A DNA stretch of 21,006 nucleotides from a virus (IMGVR_UViG_3300029922_000331:1-21006); one strand, 5' to 3'; counted from the first letter of the stretch, positions 5,508 to 20,378 are shown. The notes: generated by a model not told the origin, from the sequence alone. Translations and numbers: made by a program.

Positions 5508-8500
5508 ATGGAACAACACGAAATAGACTCACTTGTTGCGGCAATCTCCAGAAACAACAAGGAGTTGTTTGTCGGCTTTGGGAAGATCATGGGTGCCTCG
5601 AAAAATGACGCCAAACACCCTGCTGGCAATAAGTACGCAGCCGATAAAATAATCGCCGACCTCTATAGATCTGGTGACAAGGAATCGAAAAAACACAAAA
5701 CGCGTGTCGGCGCCAGTATAGCGAAGTTTGATGCCCAAATTAATCATTATACCAACTCAATTAAACGCCTCAGTGGCGGTGTTGATGAGGTTATCCATGG
5801 TCTGAAGGGGTTTGTTGCCGGTCTTGCTGGCGGAGCCATGTTCGTCAGCCTGATCGAAGGCAGCATGCACCTTGCCAAGAGCTACCAAAAGATGACCGAT
5901 ATCGGTCAGACATTTGGCGGCTCGATGCTGGAAATGGCGCGCTCTGCCGGCGAAGCGGGATTGCCGCTGGACGAATTTGCCGCAATGCTGAAAAGAAACA
6001 GCACCGTAGCGGCGGTACTTGCTGACAGCAACACCCAAACCGGCAGGTCATTGGGTTCATTGCAAAAATCAGTTCGCGACAGTTTGCGCCCCATGGGTTT
6101 CTATGGGATGTCAATCGGACAACTCGCTGATTTGACCGGAGATTACGCTGAAACATTACGCCTCCAGAATTCGTCAACATTCCGCAATAAAGACGCGACA
6201 TCCAAGAGCGTGGCACAATTTGCCAAAGACATCTCTGATTTTTCAGCGGTGACAGGCAAAAGCCGTGATGACATAGCGAAGGCAACGAATGCAGCATTGC
6301 AGGATGTATCCCTCGTCAACTCCCACCTCACGGACGCACAGACCAAAGCATTGACCACGGCGACTGCGTTCATGGCATCCATTCCCGGCGAAACCGGTGC
6401 CATGCTTGCCAAGGGGTTGGCACAGACTGTTGGGTTGGGACTGGTTTGGATGACCGATGTGGGCAAGGAACTTGCATCGGTTGGGGCAACCGGCATTATG
6501 AGTGCCATGCAGGATGCGGCTGACAAAATCAAAACCGGCAAATTCGATGCCAAAGACGAAGGCGAATACTACGACCGCATAAAGAAAGCCGCGAATGAAA
6601 ACACTGATACGTTAAAAATTCTTGCGTCGCAAGGAAATGCCGGCGCCAAGCTGGTCCTTGAGATGGCTCAGCAAATGAATAGCATATCCAGAGAGGACTG
6701 GGTAAAAAAACAGGAATCAATGAAAGGGTTTACCGCGCTGATGTCCTCATTGGAAGAGGCACTAAGTACGGTAACCGGCGCGTTTAGGGAAGCCTTCTAC
6801 GGAGCATTGCAAGGGGTTGAAGGCAGCGTTGGTAACATCGCCCCTGTCGTTGAGAAACTGAAACTGGTGGCAACAAGGTTGGGGGCCGCATTTGGAAGCC
6901 TCGTGGCATCTGCGTTCTCACCTAAAAATATAAAAGCTGCTGGCGATTTTATTGATAAGTTTATAGATAAATTGCCTGATGCCGCTACGGCTGTTAAAAA
7001 CTTTCTTCAAGGCTTTATCGACTTTGCCACAGATGACCTACCGAGCATTGTGGATAATCTCAAGACCTTGGGTCATTGGATCGGTGTCACCGCCGATGTT
7101 ATAGCAAAAATCGTTGATTTTATTCATGGTTTCTGGAGTGGTGTTATAACACCGGAAAAGGGTGAGGACGGTAAGGACAAACCCAACCATAAAGCGGATT
7201 TTCTGACCGGATTGACGGTCATAGCTGGAGGGCTTCTCGTGAAGTCCCTGATCGGTTCCCTGCTCGGTGCCGGAAAGTCGTTTCTTGGCAATTTGCTAGG
7301 GATGTCGGCGCGCAAGGTCAATATCAAAGCGCAAGTCGTAAATGTCAATGGGGGTAGCGGAGGCAGTGGTGGTGGTGGTGGTGAAGACGATAACAGACGG
7401 GAAACTCCTGAGGAAAAAGAGCGTAAGAAAAAACAGGAAGAAGAACGCCGTCGAACCGGCGGTCAACGTGAAGAAAAAGGACCAAGAAGAACAGGTCGCC
7501 AAAGAGTTGGTGATCATATTGGGCGAAACAAAGGAAAGTACGGCGCTGCACTTCTGGGCGTTGGCGGAATTGCTGCTTTGGTGGCTTCCAGTTCCTCCGC
7601 TCATGCAGCGGAAGTTCGAGACGAAGGCGAGTACTACGACCGCATAAAGAAAGACGTTAATGAACACGCAGATACGTTAAAAATTCTTGCGTCCCAAGGA
7701 GACGCTGACGCCAAGCTGACCCTTGAGATGGCTAGCCAAATGAATGGCATATCCAGAGAGGGCTGGGTAAAAAAACAGGGACTGGCAGATAAAGAAAAAC
7801 GACCGGATGACGAAAAAGATGATAATGACCGGGACGATGATGACAACGGCGGCAATGCCGATGAGGGCGAGCCGGCACGTCCGGCTGGCGTCGGAGACGT
7901 TTTGGACAAGGTCGAGGATCTTGGTGGTCTCGTTATGGCAGGGGCTTCCGTATTTCCATTAGCCAAGGCTGCCACAACCGCCATCGTTGGAACAGTTAAA
8001 AAAGTCTCCGGAATGGGCACGGCTGCCAATGACGCCGCCGCCAAAACAGCGAATGCCGCTGATAAAACGGCTGAAATGGTTGATGCCACGAGTGCAAGGG
8101 TAGCTGGCGCTGCCGATGCAACAGCGAAAACCACAACGGAAGCTGTTGGCAGCGCTTCCGATATAGCCAAAGCAACAGCAAAGACTACAGCAGACGCCAC
8201 TGGTAAGGCGGCTGAGATGGCTGACGCCACAAGTGCAAGAGTAGCTGGCGCTGCCGATGCAACAACGAAAACCACAACGGAAGCTGTTGGCAGCGCTTCC
8301 GATATAGCCAAAGCAACAGCAAAGACTACAACGGACGCCACCGGTAAGGCGGCTGAGATGGCTGACGCCACAAGTGCAAGGGTAGCTGGCGCTGCCGATG
8401 CAACACTGAAAACCGCAACGGATGCCACCGGCAAAACAGCGGAAATAGCGGGTAACGCGACCGATGCCAGTAAAGTCATAAAAGTGCCGGAGGCTGCTAC

Positions 8501-9266
8501 ATTGAAAGCGGCGCCGCTTGCCGAAGACGTTATCAAGGACGTGACACAAAAAGGAATCCTGAAAAGTGTTGCACGCGGCACCGCAGAAGCCGCTGCAAAA
8601 GCAGCCGCAAAAACCACAGCAAAGTTCATTCCTGGCGTCAATATAGCCATGTTGGCTGTATCCGCAAAGGAAAGATATTCCAGTGGTGATAAAGTCGGTG
8701 CATCAATAGACACAGCATCAGCGGCAATGGATGCTGCGGCAATAGCCTTGGCGGCGTCTGTCATTGGTGCACCAGCGGCACCGATCCTGGAAGGTCTAGC
8801 CGATGGTATGCAATTTCTAATGATGGGCTATGACGCACTTGGTTTTGGACAAGGCGGTGACAAAAAAGAAGATAAACCTACCGAAGCAACACCAGAACCT
8901 GCTCCGGAACCAGCCATTCCGGTAGATTACAAAAAACAGGAAGAGCAGCAGGCGGCATTCGATAAAGATCACGCCAATAAATTCGTTCCGGAAGAACGCG
9001 GTATTAATGAGCAATTGGCGGACCAAAGCAGCAATAAAGGTAACTTTATCGAATTGGCGAAACTTCATAACAAAAATCTTCGTGAAGTTCAGCAGAAACA
9101 ACTTGATGCCGACTTGAGTTCAAATTCACCAACAGTGCGATTGCTGGCTGAAATCCTGGACTCTTTGAAACAGCAAACTGGCATTGCGGTGCAAACCGCC
9201 GCTCAAGCCGCTGACCAACAGGAAAAGAGCCTCCGCTTGCAGAAAGAAGCCAAAGACCTGATGTGA
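5508..9266 (+). CDS. Probable tail tape measure protein
   Basis: This is a 1252-residue Ala/Lys/Asp-rich helical protein. Hydrophobic stretches lie near residues 98-118 (GLKGFVAGLAGGAMFVSLIEG), 564-600, 676-700 and 1067-1110; a basic Arg/Lys/Glu linker follows a Gly run near 625-675. Long helical proteins with scattered hydrophobic segments are typical of tape measure proteins, and the neighbour is the frameshifted gp26/gp51 pair, matching the usual chaperone/tape-measure pairing. It is about twice the length of T4 gp29 (590 residues), which would predict a longer tail. Residues 350-402 are duplicated at 705-757, and a 47-residue unit is repeated from 855. No lysozyme or peptidase motif was seen. 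An elongated baseplate or internal virion protein is the alternative. Confidence 0.6.
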   Translation: MEQHEIDSLVAAISRNNKELFVGFGKIMGASKNDAKHPAGNKYAADKIIADLYRSGDKESKKHKTRVGASIAKFDAQINHYTNSIKRLSGGVDEVIHGLKGFVAGLAGGAMFVSLIEGSMHLAKSYQKMTDIGQTFGGSMLEMARSAGEAGLPLDEFAAMLKRNSTVAAVLADSNTQTGRSLGSLQKSVRDSLRPMGFYGMSIGQLADLTGDYAETLRLQNSSTFRNKDATSKSVAQFAKDISDFSAVTGKSRDDIAKATNAALQDVSLVNSHLTDAQTKALTTATAFMASIPGETGAMLAKGLAQTVGLGLVWMTDVGKELASVGATGIMSAMQDAADKIKTGKFDAKDEGEYYDRIKKAANENTDTLKILASQGNAGAKLVLEMAQQMNSISREDWVKKQESMKGFTALMSSLEEALSTVTGAFREAFYGALQGVEGSVGNIAPVVEKLKLVATRLGAAFGSLVASAFSPKNIKAAGDFIDKFIDKLPDAATAVKNFLQGFIDFATDDLPSIVDNLKTLGHWIGVTADVIAKIVDFIHGFWSGVITPEKGEDGKDKPNHKADFLTGLTVIAGGLLVKSLIGSLLGAGKSFLGNLLGMSARKVNIKAQVVNVNGGSGGSGGGGGEDDNRRETPEEKERKKKQEEERRRTGGQREEKGPRRTGRQRVGDHIGRNKGKYGAALLGVGGIAALVASSSSAHAAEVRDEGEYYDRIKKDVNEHADTLKILASQGDADAKLTLEMASQMNGISREGWVKKQGLADKEKRPDDEKDDNDRDDDDNGGNADEGEPARPAGVGDVLDKVEDLGGLVMAGASVFPLAKAATTAIVGTVKKVSGMGTAANDAAAKTANAADKTAEMVDATSARVAGAADATAKTTTEAVGSASDIAKATAKTTADATGKAAEMADATSARVAGAADATTKTTTEAVGSASDIAKATAKTTTDATGKAAEMADATSARVAGAADATLKTATDATGKTAEIAGNATDASKVIKVPEAATLKAAPLAEDVIKDVTQKGILKSVARGTAEAAAKAAAKTTAKFIPGVNIAMLAVSAKERYSSGDKVGASIDTASAAMDAAAIALAASVIGAPAAPILEGLADGMQFLMMGYDALGFGQGGDKKEDKPTEATPEPAPEPAIPVDYKKQEEQQAAFDKDHANKFVPEERGINEQLADQSSNKGNFIELAKLHNKNLREVQQKQLDADLSSNSPTVRLLAEILDSLKQQTGIAVQTAAQAADQQEKSLRLQKEAKDLM
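6555..6714 (+). repeat. Dispersed repeat copy 1 in the tape measure gene
   Basis: This 160-bp segment encodes DEGEYYDRIKK through REDWVKKQ. It recurs, in frame and at the same length, 1065 bp downstream. By hand count about 140 of 160 bases match. Confidence 0.85.
7620..7779 (+). repeat. Dispersed repeat copy 2 in the tape measure gene
   Basis: This is the second copy of the 160-bp segment, beginning directly after the hydrophobic, signal-like stretch that ends AHAAEV. Differences from copy 1 are single-base substitutions without indels, so the duplicate has kept its reading frame. Confidence 0.85.
8070..8438 (+). repeat. 141-bp (47-codon) tandem repeats in the tape measure gene
   Basis: Two full units (8070-8210, 8211-8351) share the core ATSARVAGAADAT followed by KTTTEAVGSASDIAKATAKT. 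A third unit (8352-8438) lacks 54 bp, exactly 18 codons, from its middle. A degenerate fourth start (AEIAGNATDA) follows. All length changes are multiples of three, so the frame is preserved. The encoded repeat is Ala/Thr-rich and should form amphipathic helix. Confidence 0.9.
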
Positions 9267-9363: not shown

Positions 9364-12300
9364 ATGTCCTGGAAAAAGTATTTTCGCTCTGTCGCCCCAA
9401 CATCATCATCTTCAAACCAGCTTTCGCCTTCAACTGACGGCGCAGCCATTGGCACAAACTCCAAATTTTCTTCATACCTTCCCGAAGTCTACGCCGGACA
9501 TCCTCACCGTATCCAACGCTATTATCAATACGACGATATGGATAAAGATTCTGATATCAACGCCGCACTTGACACAATTGCGGATTTTGCCACACAAAGC
9601 GAAGAACAAAACGATACGCCATTTGAAATCGTTTATAACGGTGAAGCCAATGAAACGGAAATCAAGCTGCTGAAAGCCGCGATGGACAAATGGTGCAAAC
9701 TAAACGATTTCCGCTCCAAACTATGGTTCATGTTCCGCAATACCATCAAAAATGGCGATTCCTTTTTCCTGCGCGATCCGGAAACCTTCGAATGGTTGTG
9801 GATTGACCACTTTATGGTCGAAATGGTGAAGGTCGATGAAACTGACGGCAAGGAACCGGACGAGTATATTATCCGTGGTCTCGACTATAATAAACAAGCC
9901 AAGTTCGGTAGCATCGCCGCCGACCCTTCCCAATACCGTATGCCACTTGGAGCCGCCAATATTGGCGGCTCCCGACCATCATCCTCCCCGGCATCCGGTC
10001 CAACCGTGTTTGCCCTTTCCGGCTCAACAGCGGACCAACGCCAGCGCCGGCAACTGTCGGGACAAAATGACCAGCTATACGTTGTCGATGCCAAAAGTGT
10101 CATTCACCTGTCGCTCAGCGTCGGCATGGATATCAATTGGCCGTTCGGACAAAGCATTCTGGAACCGATTTTCAAAACTTACAAACAGAAGGAATTGCTG
10201 GAAGACGCCATTATTATCTATCGCGTCAGTCGCGCACCGGAACGGCGTATTTTCTATATTGATACAGGGCTTATGCCACCAGCACGCGCCAAGGCTCATA
10301 TTGAGCAAATGAAAAACGAAATTCATCAGCGACGTATCCCAAATCGGAGCGGCGGTGGAAGTTCTATCTTAGATGCAGCCTTTAACCCATTGAGTACAAT
10401 GGATGATTACTTTTTTTCGGTTGGATGTTTCCGGCTTAATACGGGCGTGCCTCTCTTGGACGGCAGAACATTGACATTTGCTGAGATCATTAATGAATTT
10501 AACATCGGTAAGGTCAATTACGTTTACTCGATGAACAAAAACACCCACGAATTTGAGCCAGGAAAAATCACTTGGGCAGGCTTGACGCGAAAGAATGCGG
10601 AGATGGTGCGGGTGACGTTGGACAACGGCGAGTATGCAGACTGCACCCCAGATCATCGCTTCATCACCCGCAATGGGTGTGAAGTGCACGCGGAAGACTT
10701 GCAGCCCGGAGACTCATTGATGCCACTTTACCGCTTCGCATCGTTTACCGGCAAGAAGCAGAAAACGGCAAAATGTGAACGATATCTTTCCAACGCTACC
10801 GGTAAGCGCAAGTTTACCCATCTTGCCGTATGCCCGAAGCCGCCAGGGAGAGATTTTGTTGTTCATCATATCGACTTTAATGAGCAGAACAACAGCCCAA
10901 ATAATCTTGTTGTGATGTCCTGGAAGGATCATGCGCGTTTGTCAAAGGCGTTGCAGGACGCGATTACCAGTGACGTTGAAAAGCACGCGGATTCGCTTCG
11001 TAATTTGAACAACGCGAGGGTAATGACATTTACCCCCGACATGTTTGCGAGGCTCGTCCATTTCTACAGCCGTGGGTTCCAAACCTTCAACGAAATTGGC
11101 TCGGTCTTGTCTGACGATGAGACTTTTCGGAATTTATTTTCTGCCGCGAACGCGAATACAAAAATGAATGAGGGAAGTGGGGAGAAGCTTAGCAGGCTTA
11201 TGTTGTCCCGCATCGTTCAACAAGGGGGTTATAATAGCTGGCGAGACTTTCGTGCCAGTTCCACAAATAATCATAAGGTCGTATCCGTTGAACGGCTTGT
11301 TGAGCGTGAGGATACCGCCGACATTACCGTTGAAAGTGCATCCGATAGTCACATCTTTGCGCTTTCGATAGGGGTCTATGTCCATAACTCTGAAGGAAGG
11401 GGTTCCCGAGTCGAAACACTGCCGGGCGGGGAGTGCTTTGCGCTTGATACCAGGATTGTCCTGCTTGATGGCCGGTCGCTTCCGCTACAGGAAATTATTG
11501 CCGAATTCGAGCAGGGCAAACAGTTGTGGACCTATAGCTGCAACCCCGAGACCGGTGCGGTTGTTCCCGGCATGATCAACTGGGCAGGTGTTACGCGCAA
11601 AAATGCCCAGATGGTGAAACTTACGCTGGACAATGGGAAGACGGTAACGGTTACACCGGATCACAAATTTCCGGTTCAGGGACGTGGCGTTGTGGAGGCT
11701 CGGGACCTGACGCCGGAAGATTCCCTTTTTCCGTTTGAAACGCGCAGGCAGGTAATTAAGGAAGGACGCACCAAGGATTATCTTCAGGTTTTCGACTCGT
11801 CCACGAAAAATTGGGTCTACGTTCATAGATTGGTTGCTGATTATTTCAAGGGTCACCAACTGGTGAAAAAGACGGTTTTTGATGGCGCCTATCAGGATGC
11901 CTCCAAAACCACCGTTCATCATATTAATTTTGATCGGTTCAACAACAACCCGGAAAACCTCACTTGGGTGAACCATAAGGACCATTACAAGTATCATACA
12001 GCAACTTTGAACGAAAACTATGGGCATCTCGCCCGTGAAGGTTTGATGAGGTTCTTTGCATCCCTTACAGAAGAACAAAAACAGGTCCGCAATCAACATA
12101 TGAGCGACAAAATAAAAGCATCAATTGCCCGTAAAACAGAAAGCGAAATGGCCGAGTTTATTGCTCAATCGACCGCAAATCTCAAAAATGGTCACGCGAC
12201 AGAGCGACAGTTGTGGTTGTTGCAAAATGACCCCTGTGATTTTGTTTTTGCTGTTAGGCACTTGAATGTCATGCTGGAGAACAGGGGAACGACGTGGAAG

Positions 12301-13428
12301 GCGGTCAGGGATAAAGCGATTGCCGGGCAGAAACCTCGGATGACGAAGACCCTTAAAACTGATATTAAAGTTATTCAAGATGTAGCACTCCATTTTAAGG
12401 CGGGAGCGGTATCGCTACCCGATATGATCCAAAGTCTTAATTCTGACGCTGGTTTCATCGAACATCTTGCGTCATTAAACCAGAAACGCCACCATCTTGG
12501 CAAAGCTGACCAAATCAGCTACACACAATTGGTGTCCATTCTCCAGGACAATGGCTATGATTCGTGGAAGGCATTTAAGGCAGCCGGCGCCAATTTCAAT
12601 CATAGGATTGTCAGTATCGAATGGCTCGACCAAAAACAAAATACCGGAACGGTGACAATTGACGGTGCAGAAATCTTCCACGATTATCACACCCTGGCGT
12701 TGGACGTGGGAATATATTCACAGAATTCTTTGGGGGAAATTTCGGATCTAAGTTTCTTCAGCAAAAAGTTAGCACGCGGATTGCGTATTCCGCCGTCATA
12801 TTTGTCGATCGGTGAAGACCAAAACGCCCCAATTGCCTTCAATGACGGTAAACTTGGCGCCGCGTTGATTCAGGAATTCCGTTTCAATAAGTATTGCATG
12901 CGTATCCAGAGCCTATTGTCGCCAGTCTTTGACAAAGAGTTCCGCGCTTTCCTGGACCGTTCAGGCATTGAAATCGACCCTAACCTGTTTAGCGTCCGGT
13001 TCAATCCGCCACAGAACTTTACCAAATACCGTCAGATTGAGTTGGATACTCAACAGGTCGGTGTTTATACCCAACTTGCCGAAAACAAGCGTTTGTCGGA
13101 ACGCTTCAAGCTCAAGCGATTCCTGAACCTTACTGATGACGAAGTCCTTGAGAACGAGACCATGTGGGCGGAAGAGAATGCCGCCAAAATCAAGAAATCA
13201 ACCGGTGAAACCCCAGCCGATGACACCGGCGATCAGGGTCTGTCTACCGTTGGCGTACGGAGCCCAGGCATGGATATGGACATGGGTGAACCGCCAGCCG
13301 AGGGCGGTGAAGATATGGCTGGCGGCGTCCCTCCAGAAGGCGGTGACGCTGGCATGGCATCAGCGGCAGGCGGCGCTCCACCAGCCGCAGGAGGGGCAGG
13401 CGCTCCTGGAGGCGCTCCCCCCGGATAA
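9364..13428 (+). CDS. gp20: Portal vertex protein (gp20) interrupted by two inteins
   Basis: The 1354-codon frame is a T4-type portal with two in-frame inteins. N-extein residues 1-354 include HRIQRYYQYDDMDKDSDINA, LEDAIIIYRVSRAPERRIFY and STMDDYFFSVG. A 15-residue middle extein, SEGRGSRVETLPGGE (676-690), and C-extein 1122-1354, starting SLGEISDLSFFSKKLARGL, complete the conserved portal core (compare the family's GRG...TLPGGxxLGE). After splicing the portal would be 602 residues, near the 524 of T4 gp20 plus a Gly/Ala/Pro-rich tail. The portal forms the dodecameric DNA entry ring and nucleates prohead assembly. The stop TAA is embedded in a downstream late promoter. No frameshift is visible, so both inteins look able to splice. 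Confidence 0.93.
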   Translation: MSWKKYFRSVAPTSSSSNQLSPSTDGAAIGTNSKFSSYLPEVYAGHPHRIQRYYQYDDMDKDSDINAALDTIADFATQSEEQNDTPFEIVYNGEANETEIKLLKAAMDKWCKLNDFRSKLWFMFRNTIKNGDSFFLRDPETFEWLWIDHFMVEMVKVDETDGKEPDEYIIRGLDYNKQAKFGSIAADPSQYRMPLGAANIGGSRPSSSPASGPTVFALSGSTADQRQRRQLSGQNDQLYVVDAKSVIHLSLSVGMDINWPFGQSILEPIFKTYKQKELLEDAIIIYRVSRAPERRIFYIDTGLMPPARAKAHIEQMKNEIHQRRIPNRSGGGSSILDAAFNPLSTMDDYFFSVGCFRLNTGVPLLDGRTLTFAEIINEFNIGKVNYVYSMNKNTHEFEPGKITWAGLTRKNAEMVRVTLDNGEYADCTPDHRFITRNGCEVHAEDLQPGDSLMPLYRFASFTGKKQKTAKCERYLSNATGKRKFTHLAVCPKPPGRDFVVHHIDFNEQNNSPNNLVVMSWKDHARLSKALQDAITSDVEKHADSLRNLNNARVMTFTPDMFARLVHFYSRGFQTFNEIGSVLSDDETFRNLFSAANANTKMNEGSGEKLSRLMLSRIVQQGGYNSWRDFRASSTNNHKVVSVERLVEREDTADITVESASDSHIFALSIGVYVHNSEGRGSRVETLPGGECFALDTRIVLLDGRSLPLQEIIAEFEQGKQLWTYSCNPETGAVVPGMINWAGVTRKNAQMVKLTLDNGKTVTVTPDHKFPVQGRGVVEARDLTPEDSLFPFETRRQVIKEGRTKDYLQVFDSSTKNWVYVHRLVADYFKGHQLVKKTVFDGAYQDASKTTVHHINFDRFNNNPENLTWVNHKDHYKYHTATLNENYGHLAREGLMRFFASLTEEQKQVRNQHMSDKIKASIARKTESEMAEFIAQSTANLKNGHATERQLWLLQNDPCDFVFAVRHLNVMLENRGTTWKAVRDKAIAGQKPRMTKTLKTDIKVIQDVALHFKAGAVSLPDMIQSLNSDAGFIEHLASLNQKRHHLGKADQISYTQLVSILQDNGYDSWKAFKAAGANFNHRIVSIEWLDQKQNTGTVTIDGAEIFHDYHTLALDVGIYSQNSLGEISDLSFFSKKLARGLRIPPSYLSIGEDQNAPIAFNDGKLGAALIQEFRFNKYCMRIQSLLSPVFDKEFRAFLDRSGIEIDPNLFSVRFNPPQNFTKYRQIELDTQQVGVYTQLAENKRLSERFKLKRFLNLTDDEVLENETMWAEENAAKIKKSTGETPADDTGDQGLSTVGVRSPGMDMDMGEPPAEGGEDMAGGVPPEGGDAGMASAAGGAPPAAGGAGAPGGAPPG
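10426..11388 (+). mobile_element. Intein 1 in the portal, HNH homing-endonuclease type (321 aa)
   Basis: The intein runs from Cys355 (CFRLNTGVPLLDGR) to Asn675, with terminal HN followed by Ser +1. Hint-domain blocks are visible: block A at the start, block B as TPDHRF, and block F/G as SHIFALSIGVYVHN. In the middle HHIDFNEQNNSPNNL (from H501) is an HNH nuclease signature, so this is a mobile rather than a mini intein. Removal joins ...YFFSVG to SEGRGSR.... All catalytic splicing residues (Cys1, block B His, His-Asn, Ser+1) are present, so splicing is expected. Confidence 0.92.
11434..12726 (+). mobile_element. Intein 2 in the portal, HNH homing-endonuclease type (431 aa)
   Basis: The intein runs from Cys691 (CFALDTRIVLLDGR) to Asn1121, followed by Ser +1. 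Block B is TPDHKF, and HHINFDRFNNNPENL (from H852) is the HNH signature. The end, HTLALDVGIYSQN, has Gln in place of the usual penultimate His, a known but less common variant that can slow Asn cyclisation. It is clearly related to intein 1 (both carry WAG[LV]TRKNA and TLDNG) but about 110 residues longer, mainly after the HNH region. Confidence 0.92.
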
Positions 13429-18644: not shown

Positions 18645-18673
18645 TTGACAGCATTCTTCGGTTCGGGTATGCT
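18645..18673 (+). promoter_or_regulatory. Sigma70-like promoter giving a near-leaderless transcript of the homing endonuclease
   Basis: TTGACA (18645-18650), a 17-bp spacer and TATGCT (18668-18673) are followed 7 nt later by ATG 18681. The geometry is almost identical to the promoter at 4210-4238, and there is no ribosome site. Confidence 0.5.
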
Positions 18674-18680
18674 GATCGCC

Positions 18681-20378
18681 ATGAAAAACCGCCTCGCCGA
18701 ACTTATCACCAAGCATGGGCTGAAGCATTGGTCCTTTGGGGCTCGCAAGGACCCCGAGTTCATGTCCTGGGTCATGTCTGAAACTTCGGAAATGCCTGAC
18801 GATACTCTGTTCCCTGTTAGGGTCTATGCCGCGACATCAGGGACGCGTCCCCAGTGCGAGCACGGCGGCATGCGCACCCTCAAGAGCATCCAGGATGGTT
18901 GGAAGTTCTGTGGGAAGTCCGGAATCTGCCAGTGCGCCAAAAAATCAGTTTCGGATAGCATGAAGGCGGCCTGCGCAAATCGGTCGGCTGATGATATTGC
19001 CAAGTCTGTCGCGAAACGCGAGAAAACGTTTGTCGAAAGGCATGGGATAACCAACGCAGGCAGGCTGCCGCAAGCGTTGGCTGCCCACGCTGGGTTTTAT
19101 GCTGACCCGAAGAAAGTTGCCATCGCCGTCCAAAAGGGCGCCGAAACCATGCTGGAGTTGTATGGCGTAGCGAATGCTCTGCAACTGGAGAAAGTGGTGG
19201 AAATCAGGCGCTATAATTCGACGCACAGGACGGAAGCGCAAAAAGAATCTGCCACTGCAAAGCGAAGGGCACATGCCGCAAATGGCGGATTTCTTGCTTC
19301 AAGTCATAAGAGGCTTGTGGCAAAGTTTGATGGCTTAGGTTTTACTATGCTAACAACTGAGGAGGAATATTTTGGCGTTGGTGGAACTGGCAAACGATAC
19401 AAATACAAGTTTTCCTGCCATCGTTGCAATCTTCGTTTTGTTGATTACATTTATGATGGCGCCGAGCCATCTTGTCCCATTTGTGATTATAAGGAACCGA
19501 AAGGTACTTCAAAACCGGAGATTGAGATTGCCGGGTATGTAAGGTCTCTTGGTGTCCTCGTGATCCAGAACACCCATTCATTGATTCAGAATATGGAGAT
19601 CGACATTCAGGCTCCAGATCATAAGGTCGCAGTAGAGCACGGAGGTCTGTGGTGGCACTGCGAGGGGTCGCACGGAAAAAAGAAATGGTATCATTTCATG
19701 AAACTGAAAAAGTGCGCGGATATCGGGTATCGCCTCGTGACAATTTTTGGTGATGAATGGCTGGAAAAAAAGGATATCTGCAAGCGACGTCTGGCGCACA
19801 TCTTTGGTGTGGAAACGGAGCGGGTATTTGCCAGAAAAACCACCATTGTGACGATTACGGCGGCTGAAGCTAGGGAATTCTTGGAACGCAATCACATACA
19901 AGGTTACGCGCAGGGAGCGACTGAGCACCTTGGACTGATGAACGGCAATGTTCTGGTATCGGTGATGACTTTCGGTAAGCCACGTATGATACAGAACCAG
20001 CCGCCTCCTGGACCAAGAGATTGGGAGCTTAGCAGGTTTGCCTCCAGCGTCCTTGTTGTCGGTGGGGCATCCAAGCTGTTTGCCGCCTTCGTGAGGGCAT
20101 ACGACCCCTGGATGATATTGTCGTTTTGTGACAAGCGATGGGGAACAGGGAAGGTTTACGATAAAATGGGGTTTGCTTTGGAGGGGGAATCCGCCCCTGG
20201 ATATTTTTGGGTTGAAAAATATCTGGTGCGGCACGACAGGAGCAAATTCACCAAATACAAGCTTGTGGAACAGGGTTTTGATGCAAATATAAGTGAATCC
20301 GAAATAATGTTCGAGCGCGGTTTTGATCGCATTTGGGACTGTGGCAACCTGCGGTATCGTTGGCACAAGCCAACATAA
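18681..20378 (+). CDS. Free-standing homing-endonuclease-like protein with Vsr/EDxHD-type nuclease domain
   Basis: From ATG 18681 the product is 565 residues (ATG 18669 or TTG 18645 would overlap the promoter). In order: an N-terminal Cys cluster (C59, C77, C83, C85); two helical repeats (ERHGITNAGRLPQ and ELYGVANALQLEK) of a kind seen in phage nucleases; a zinc ribbon (C246/C249, C265/C268); a nuclease core with E280/E282, E306-I-D308, H320, H326 and GDEW (D358), resembling Vsr-like or EDxHD endonucleases; and a C-terminal domain (NHIQGYAQG, VSVMTFGKPR, ELSRF, VVGGASKLF, then KRWGTGKVYDKMGF) common on phage homing endonucleases and GNAT-like in pattern. It lies alone after the capsid gene, behind its own terminator and promoter, as expected of a selfish gene. 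The cleavage target is unknown. Confidence 0.8.
   Translation: MKNRLAELITKHGLKHWSFGARKDPEFMSWVMSETSEMPDDTLFPVRVYAATSGTRPQCEHGGMRTLKSIQDGWKFCGKSGICQCAKKSVSDSMKAACANRSADDIAKSVAKREKTFVERHGITNAGRLPQALAAHAGFYADPKKVAIAVQKGAETMLELYGVANALQLEKVVEIRRYNSTHRTEAQKESATAKRRAHAANGGFLASSHKRLVAKFDGLGFTMLTTEEEYFGVGGTGKRYKYKFSCHRCNLRFVDYIYDGAEPSCPICDYKEPKGTSKPEIEIAGYVRSLGVLVIQNTHSLIQNMEIDIQAPDHKVAVEHGGLWWHCEGSHGKKKWYHFMKLKKCADIGYRLVTIFGDEWLEKKDICKRRLAHIFGVETERVFARKTTIVTITAAEAREFLERNHIQGYAQGATEHLGLMNGNVLVSVMTFGKPRMIQNQPPPGPRDWELSRFASSVLVVGGASKLFAAFVRAYDPWMILSFCDKRWGTGKVYDKMGFALEGESAPGYFWVEKYLVRHDRSKFTKYKLVEQGFDANISESEIMFERGFDRIWDCGNLRYRWHKPT

Follow-up and report, generated by a model that had tools for sequence, protein, structure and literature searches.

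The window, by which we mean the whole 21,006-bp stretch of DNA analysed here, is a virus record of the IMG/VR database (IMGVR_UViG_3300029922_000331:1-21006). Profile searches identified T4-type head genes in it, namely those of the portal, an S77-type prohead protease and the gp23 major capsid protein; protease, gp23 and core genes are located downstream of the portal gene. The portal gene itself is interrupted by two inteins, which are the subject of this report. Its open reading frame (ORF) matches Portal_T4 on both sides of two inserts (E=4e-80), phrog_213 is also matched, and the homology to gp20 extends across both N and C exteins, as expected of a T4-type portal. Within the same ORF, Intein_splicing (E=5e-21), HNH_3 (E=1e-10) and intein_Nterm (E=7e-20) were each detected in two stretches. 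At such E-values, chance origin of the intein and portal sequence matches is not an issue. Organization of the gene is summarized in Table 1.

Table 1. Anatomy of the intein-bearing portal gene in the window
Feature	Coordinates	Strand	Properties and supporting matches
Portal ORF	9364..13428	+	1354 codons, no internal stop
Portal N-extein, aa 1-354, ends ...STMDDYFFSVG	9364..10425	+	Portal_T4/phrog_213; aligns to T4 gp20 structures 3ja7, 6uzc, 9lu6
Intein at site a (intein 1), 321 aa, aa 355-675	10426..11388	+	Cys1, TPDH block B, block-F Asp and His, C-terminal YVHN, Ser+1
HNH motif of intein a, VVHHIDFNEQNNSPNNLVVMSWKDH	10852..10938	+	HNH_3 at residues 143-171; strand-strand-helix in AlphaFold2 model
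Middle extein, 15 residues, SEGRGSRVETLPGGE	11389..11433 (45 bp)	+	Gapless alignment in intein-free portals and Atu_ph07; T4 numbering
Intein at site b (intein 2), 431 aa, aa 691-1121	11434..12726	+	Cys1, TPDH, block-F His, YSQN ending, Asn431, Ser+1
HNH endonuclease motif of intein b, VHHINFDRFNNNPENLTWVNHKDH	11815..11985	+	HNH_3 at residues 128-184; phrog_59 HNH
Portal C-extein, aa 1122-1354 and stop, starts SLGEISDLSFFSKK	12727..13428	+	Portals 74% identical in IMG/VR; Atu_ph07 portal

Cys1 is present in both window inteins, as it is in 166 of 166 site-assigned inteins. Block B reads TPDH at residues 74-77 in both, in agreement with the TxxH pattern, and the C-terminal junctions (Asn321/Ser in intein a, Asn431/Ser in intein b) are those of class 1 inteins. 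HNH_3 scores above its cut-off in each of them. Moreover, the two are mutually homologous, with 39% identity over the N-terminal 196 residues. A preliminary description of this DNA had claimed two complete inteins in a T4-type portal gene; ORF translation and domain searches confirmed their coordinates, Cys1, TPDH, terminal Asn and Ser+1. The HNH motif in each intein, their mutual homology and two substitutions in intein b (Gln and Thr, see below) are additions to it. Removal of both inteins leaves a portal of 602 residues (354 + 15 + 233).

AlphaFold2 models of inteins a and b have mean predicted local distance difference test (pLDDT) scores of 86.6 and 83.6, respectively. Hint blocks of intein a exceed 90, and block values are mostly above 90 for both. 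Foldseek matches both models to solved inteins with E-values down to 1e-7, including PI-PfuI, NrdJ-1 and Ssp DnaB inteins in the case of intein a. NrdJ-1, a split intein that resides in a ribonucleotide reductase and lacks an endonuclease, ranks first for intein b and fourth for intein a; by sequence (PDB 8ubs) it is the best solved-structure relative of the splicing domains (E=5e-12). Both window inteins are predicted by these models to adopt the Hint fold.

Search with the C-extein alone, which is blind to inteins, retrieved 80 portal loci, most of them intein-free. Inteins of this family occur in 8 of these 80 loci and therefore represent the minority state. The spliced 602-residue product aligns to intein-free portals without large insertion. 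In Agrobacterium phage Atu_ph07, an isolate, the alignment passes without a gap through both junctions (DDYFFSVG/SEGRGSRVETLPGGE/SLGEI versus DDYFFATNSDGRGSRVEILPGGENLGSI), and both sites are empty in Atu_ph07 as well as in loci L003 and L004. Residues 355-675 and 691-1121, whose presence in intein-free portals would have spoken against inteins, are absent there. It had also been proposed that the 15-residue (45-bp) middle extein lies in a conserved region of the portal and that both inteins need to be excised for a portal of normal length. Both points were borne out; intein-free relatives carry the middle extein without a gap and lack exactly the two intein segments. Singly spliced intermediates may exist, and formation of the dodecamer may depend on both splicing events.

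Two-intein architecture like that of the window was found in L002, a contig from another sample, with orthologous inteins at both sites. Window and L002 are sisters in the extein tree (SH-like approximate likelihood ratio test, SH-aLRT, 96). Their inteins share 50% identity at site a and 50% at site b, compared to 29-36% between sites and 34% between the two window inteins. As the record is short, of metagenomic origin and contains two homologous inserts, one might suspect that two contigs with different inteins were wrongly joined. We consider such an assembly chimera extremely unlikely because L002, coming from another sample, displays the same arrangement with orthologous inteins. In addition, locus L261 carries a and b with the same 15-residue spacing, and the window exteins are in frame with exact junctions.

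Insertion sites were numbered by alignment to T4 gp20; the numbering agrees with residues R338 and K342 named for its inner clip loop (PMC4493910). Site c falls between residues 328 and 329 in the clip domain, site a between 338 and 339 in the inner clip loop, and sites b and b1 between 354 and 355 and between 353 and 354, respectively, in the channel loop (residues 350-359). The middle extein of the window corresponds to R339-D354 and thus leads from the inner clip loop into the channel loop. Both loops face DNA in the T4 portal, and unspliced inserts of 320-430 residues in these loops would block the channel. Within the site-a clade, junctions shift by up to two codons (FFA/CGNEG in L002, FFAQ/SAEG in L200 and FFSVG/SEGRG in the window); total extein length stays constant despite these shifts (L002, L184, L200, L230 and window). 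The pattern resembles sliding of the intein boundary over one or two codons.

A portal with two inteins was presented as a rarity in the preliminary description. This part of it did not hold: the same hot spot contains pairs or triples of inteins in no fewer than 17 further portals, where the middle extein can be down to 10 residues long. When each window intein was scanned as a single protein, there were no matches, and alignment queries were required to detect relatives. Intein-only alignment searches of viral contigs, two of them with 80 of 387 relatives kept, together with known portal loci yielded 186 ORFs with an intein of this family, and all 186 are T4-type portals. An added scan with site-a inteins gave 76 intein-matching ORFs. 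The portal profile is also matched by 55 of them, the others being mostly fragments, more distant portals or weak matches. In genome contigs, relatives of the family are found mostly in other bacterial and archaeal ORFs, and in portals in three cases. Judged by sequence, restriction to portals is true for close viral relatives, not for the whole intein family. Contigs L331 and L330, parts of bacterial metagenome-assembled genomes labelled Alphaproteobacteria and Bacillota, are probably binned phage sequences because both carry intein-bearing T4-type portals.

Altogether, 155 distinct intein-bearing portals were obtained, 20 of which were parsed with two or three inteins. One contig, L281, has the same length as the window (21,006 bp), but the two show no relationship at DNA level. 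Eighteen of the 20, window included, have their inteins clustered in one hot spot, and two of the 18 are triples. The remaining two portals (L127 and L146), with two inteins far apart, stand outside the hot-spot count. Their ORFs are very long (1544-1953 aa) and contain additional intein-like inserts far upstream, after PFWTRN; L127 has also one near FRQ. The hot spot shows above-average conservation, but other stretches of the portal are better conserved (its rank is 144 among 574 windows compared). Closely spaced inteins occur as well in a public, unannotated 484-kb genome of an uncultured huge phage (LR756508.1), which also contradicts the supposed rarity. Its region 143734-152321 (L082) has a portal ORF at 2027 into which three inteins are inserted; between two of them there are only 13 extein residues (SVLEGARRTWKQL). 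One of these inteins is distantly related to those of the window; unlike in the window, they occupy different portal sites, and the portal is more distant. Another intein-like insert is held by the L082 ORF at 164.

Middle exteins of the hot-spot multiples range from 10 to 26 residues. The shortest has 10 residues (L200), followed by 11 (L144, L184, L260, L274 and L293), 14 (L230, L233 and L248), 15 (window and the a-b gap of L261), 17 (L002), about 24 (L086, parsed boundary corrected by eye) and 26 (L113). The triples are L261, with inteins c, a and b and gaps of 11 and 15 residues, and L291, with gaps of 13 and 12. Since window inteins share their fold and about 39% identity and the extein between them is short, the N-half of the Hint domain of intein a might be imagined to pair with the C-half of intein b, removing the 15-residue extein and giving a shorter portal. 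There is very little reason to expect such cross-splicing: all intein-free homologues keep the middle-extein residues, and the middle extein is alignable and full length in all doubles.

Two patterns were considered and not retained. Site-a inteins seemed at first to be restricted to double portals (6/6), which was rejected as single site-a portals were found (L262, L264, L265, L267, L268 and others). Similarly, we do not claim that one partner is often devoid of homing endonuclease (HEN) through interference by its neighbour. A partner shorter than 260 aa was present in 11 of 18 multiples versus 7 of 131 singles, but these numbers come from searches weighted towards full-length inteins, which under-sample short single ones. 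In a less biased set of site-a/a2 inteins, short inteins are present in 6 of 23 singles versus 3 of 12 multiples, with no difference.

To estimate relationship between the inteins, a tree of 152 inteins was constructed. It requires 16 site changes compared to a mean of 78 for shuffled labels, so that site and clade agree strongly. Window intein a belongs to a clade of 15 inteins (SH-aLRT 100), all from site a and originating from single, double and triple portals. Intein b groups with L002_b and L113_b (SH-aLRT 99), far from intein a. Because the window inteins belong to separate site-specific clades, the sequences indicate that the pair arose by two invasions from separate site-specific families, in support of the double invasion proposed earlier. 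Tandem duplication of one intein within the portal gene, followed by divergence, would account for two homologous copies (39% over the N-terminal 196 residues) lying 45 bp apart. It is nevertheless very improbable, as the copies are not closest relatives of each other, and each is nearer to its L002 counterpart (50%) than to its neighbour (34%).

In the extein tree, presence of intein a changes 11 times, that of b 11 times and that of c 13 times. Three pairs of related phages contain precise presence/absence alleles or alleles that were probably exchanged; in all three, change may have run in either direction. Loci L229 (b) and L230 (a+b) share 99.4-99.8% identity along 10 kb. The latter contains, exactly 42 bp before its intein b, an inserted intein a of 1125 bp; its intein b is 99.9% identical to that of L229. 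Mismatches between their exteins are clustered: 5 of 14 lie in 64 bp just upstream of the insertion, and none in the 42 bp between the inteins. In sequence, L230 looks like the result of homing of intein a beside a resident intein b, with a short co-conversion tract. Mobility, understood as empty sites in relatives together with transfer, is evident for the site-a family by gain or loss between L229 and L230, and not for the copy in the window.

The second pair, L121 (b) and L233 (a+b), has exteins about 95% identical. Identity of their b inteins is only 55%, and the 42-bp micro-extein differs at 31% of positions (P ~1e-10 at the background rate, with positions treated as independent). The L233 block consists of intein a (148 aa, no HEN), micro-extein and intein b. 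Since micro-extein and b diverge together, a, micro-extein and b differ as one unit, and the block was likely exchanged as such by co-conversion of neighbours. Co-conversion of neighbours is likewise the likely source of the sequence pattern in the third pair, L113 (c+b) and L261 (c+a+b). Here the alleles of intein c differ (55% identity), the b inteins are 98.9% identical, and the 33-bp extein between c and a differs at 15% of positions (P ~2e-7, again with positions treated as independent). We tentatively propose, as a possibility falling somewhat short of probable, that a HEN-less intein, a micro-extein of 10-17 residues and a HEN-bearing neighbour may be transferred in one recombination event driven by the endonuclease of the neighbour.

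Splicing is assisted by the penultimate His and by Asp and His of block F, the block-F positions being described as less conserved (PMC4031507). All three are present in intein a. Intein b keeps the block-F His, with Gln in place of the penultimate His and Thr in place of Asp at block F:4. Considering the roles of these residues, and the two inteins of Mycobacterium smegmatis DnaB, which splice at very different rates, one of them being redox-sensitive (PMC6195587), one window intein, most likely b, might be non-splicing or conditional. The portal precursor would then be retained, and splicing would act as a switch on head assembly. We regard this as improbable. Cys1, TxxH, block-F His, Asn and Ser+1 of intein b are intact, and the penultimate residue of site-b and site-c inteins is mostly Lys, with His in only 2 of about 130 (in site-a inteins, His is found in 16 of 20). 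Because Lys prevails at this position and the ORFs stay intact, these sequences suggest that the non-His residue is a family-wide working variant. As for the endonucleases, the respective region of intein b is full-size. In intein a the HNH motif is present, yet alignment with most site-a inteins shows a deficit of about 55 residues behind it, perhaps a sign of early endonuclease decay.

We are highly confident that the window encodes a T4-type portal precursor with two class-1 HNH inteins from site-specific families, assembled stepwise or as a block and predicted to be spliced to 602 residues. To judge from sequence, two successive splicing reactions very likely restore the portal. Each intein would invade its own site by endonuclease-driven homing, and the pair would be gathered step by step or taken up as one block. 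Once the precursor is translated, each Hint domain would fold and excise itself, in either order. Joining of 354, 15 and 233 residues would produce a portal able to form the DNA channel. We infer that both inteins splice in the window phage irrespective of order, that their endonucleases are active and that an unspliced portal would be unable to assemble or package. Three points weigh against this reading. The endonuclease of intein a may be failing, given the residues missing after its HNH motif; intein b may splice slowly or conditionally, given the absent penultimate His and block-F Asp; and, as the window is a 21-kb fragment, the rest of the genome may hold a second portal copy.

The closest studied case is the haloarchaeal MCM helicase, with neighbouring inteins at sites MCM-a, b, c and d (PMC10643990). 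In both systems a conserved gene has several inteins at close sites, the inteins form site-specific families, and alleles with one and with two inteins exist; some inteins lack an endonuclease, and some sites line a DNA channel. In contrast to the archaeal helicase, the host gene here is a phage portal. Co-homing of two active inteins is poor in MCM, and it was left open whether a HEN-less intein rides with its neighbour (PMC10643990); L121 and L233, on the contrary, point to joint exchange of a HEN-less intein with the one next to it. An intein in a phage portal gene is known from cluster C1 mycobacteriophages (PORT). It is listed as one portal group of 6 inteins from another phage type, with no pair described in the passages concerned (PMC5050341). 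Two inteins in one phage gene were described for TerL of a crAss-like phage, with two Hint-Hop inteins (PMC7886860), and for PhoH and RNR of Campylobacter phage IBB_35 (PMC3322345), proteins other than the portal.

Two other ORFs of the window deserve mention. A tape-measure-like ORF (5508-9266) contains 2.5 copies of a 141-bp repeat at 8068-8422 (93% match); a stretch of some 50 residues (DEGEYYDRIKK...) is repeated in it as well. The gp23 capsid gene is immediately followed by a free-standing homing-endonuclease-like ORF of 577 aa (18645-20378, + strand; phrog_3339, E=8e-100), whose C-terminal part weakly matches the Mom DNA-modification family.

The window pair is one member of a portal intein hot spot and is not unique. 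We found no description of this hot spot in the open-licence literature searched, and we consider the wider system more interesting than the single case. Inteins matter both as selfish elements acting at protein level and as tools. In this hot spot, up to three of them reside in the channel loops of a head protein that is essential, and the exteins between them, 10-26 residues long, would have to be joined by successive splicing. It represents a source of HNH inteins expected to splice even where very few extein residues separate them. In genome annotation, T4-type portals of 950-1950 residues may be intein-bearing rather than new proteins. Paired alleles, that is, the same phage with or without one neighbour, offer a natural test of whether an intein hinders or promotes the spread of its neighbour. 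If the proposed block movement is true, the micro-extein would count as a component of a composite mobile element, and portal inteins would provide a natural answer to the question raised in haloarchaeal MCM, whether a HEN-less intein homes with its neighbour's help.

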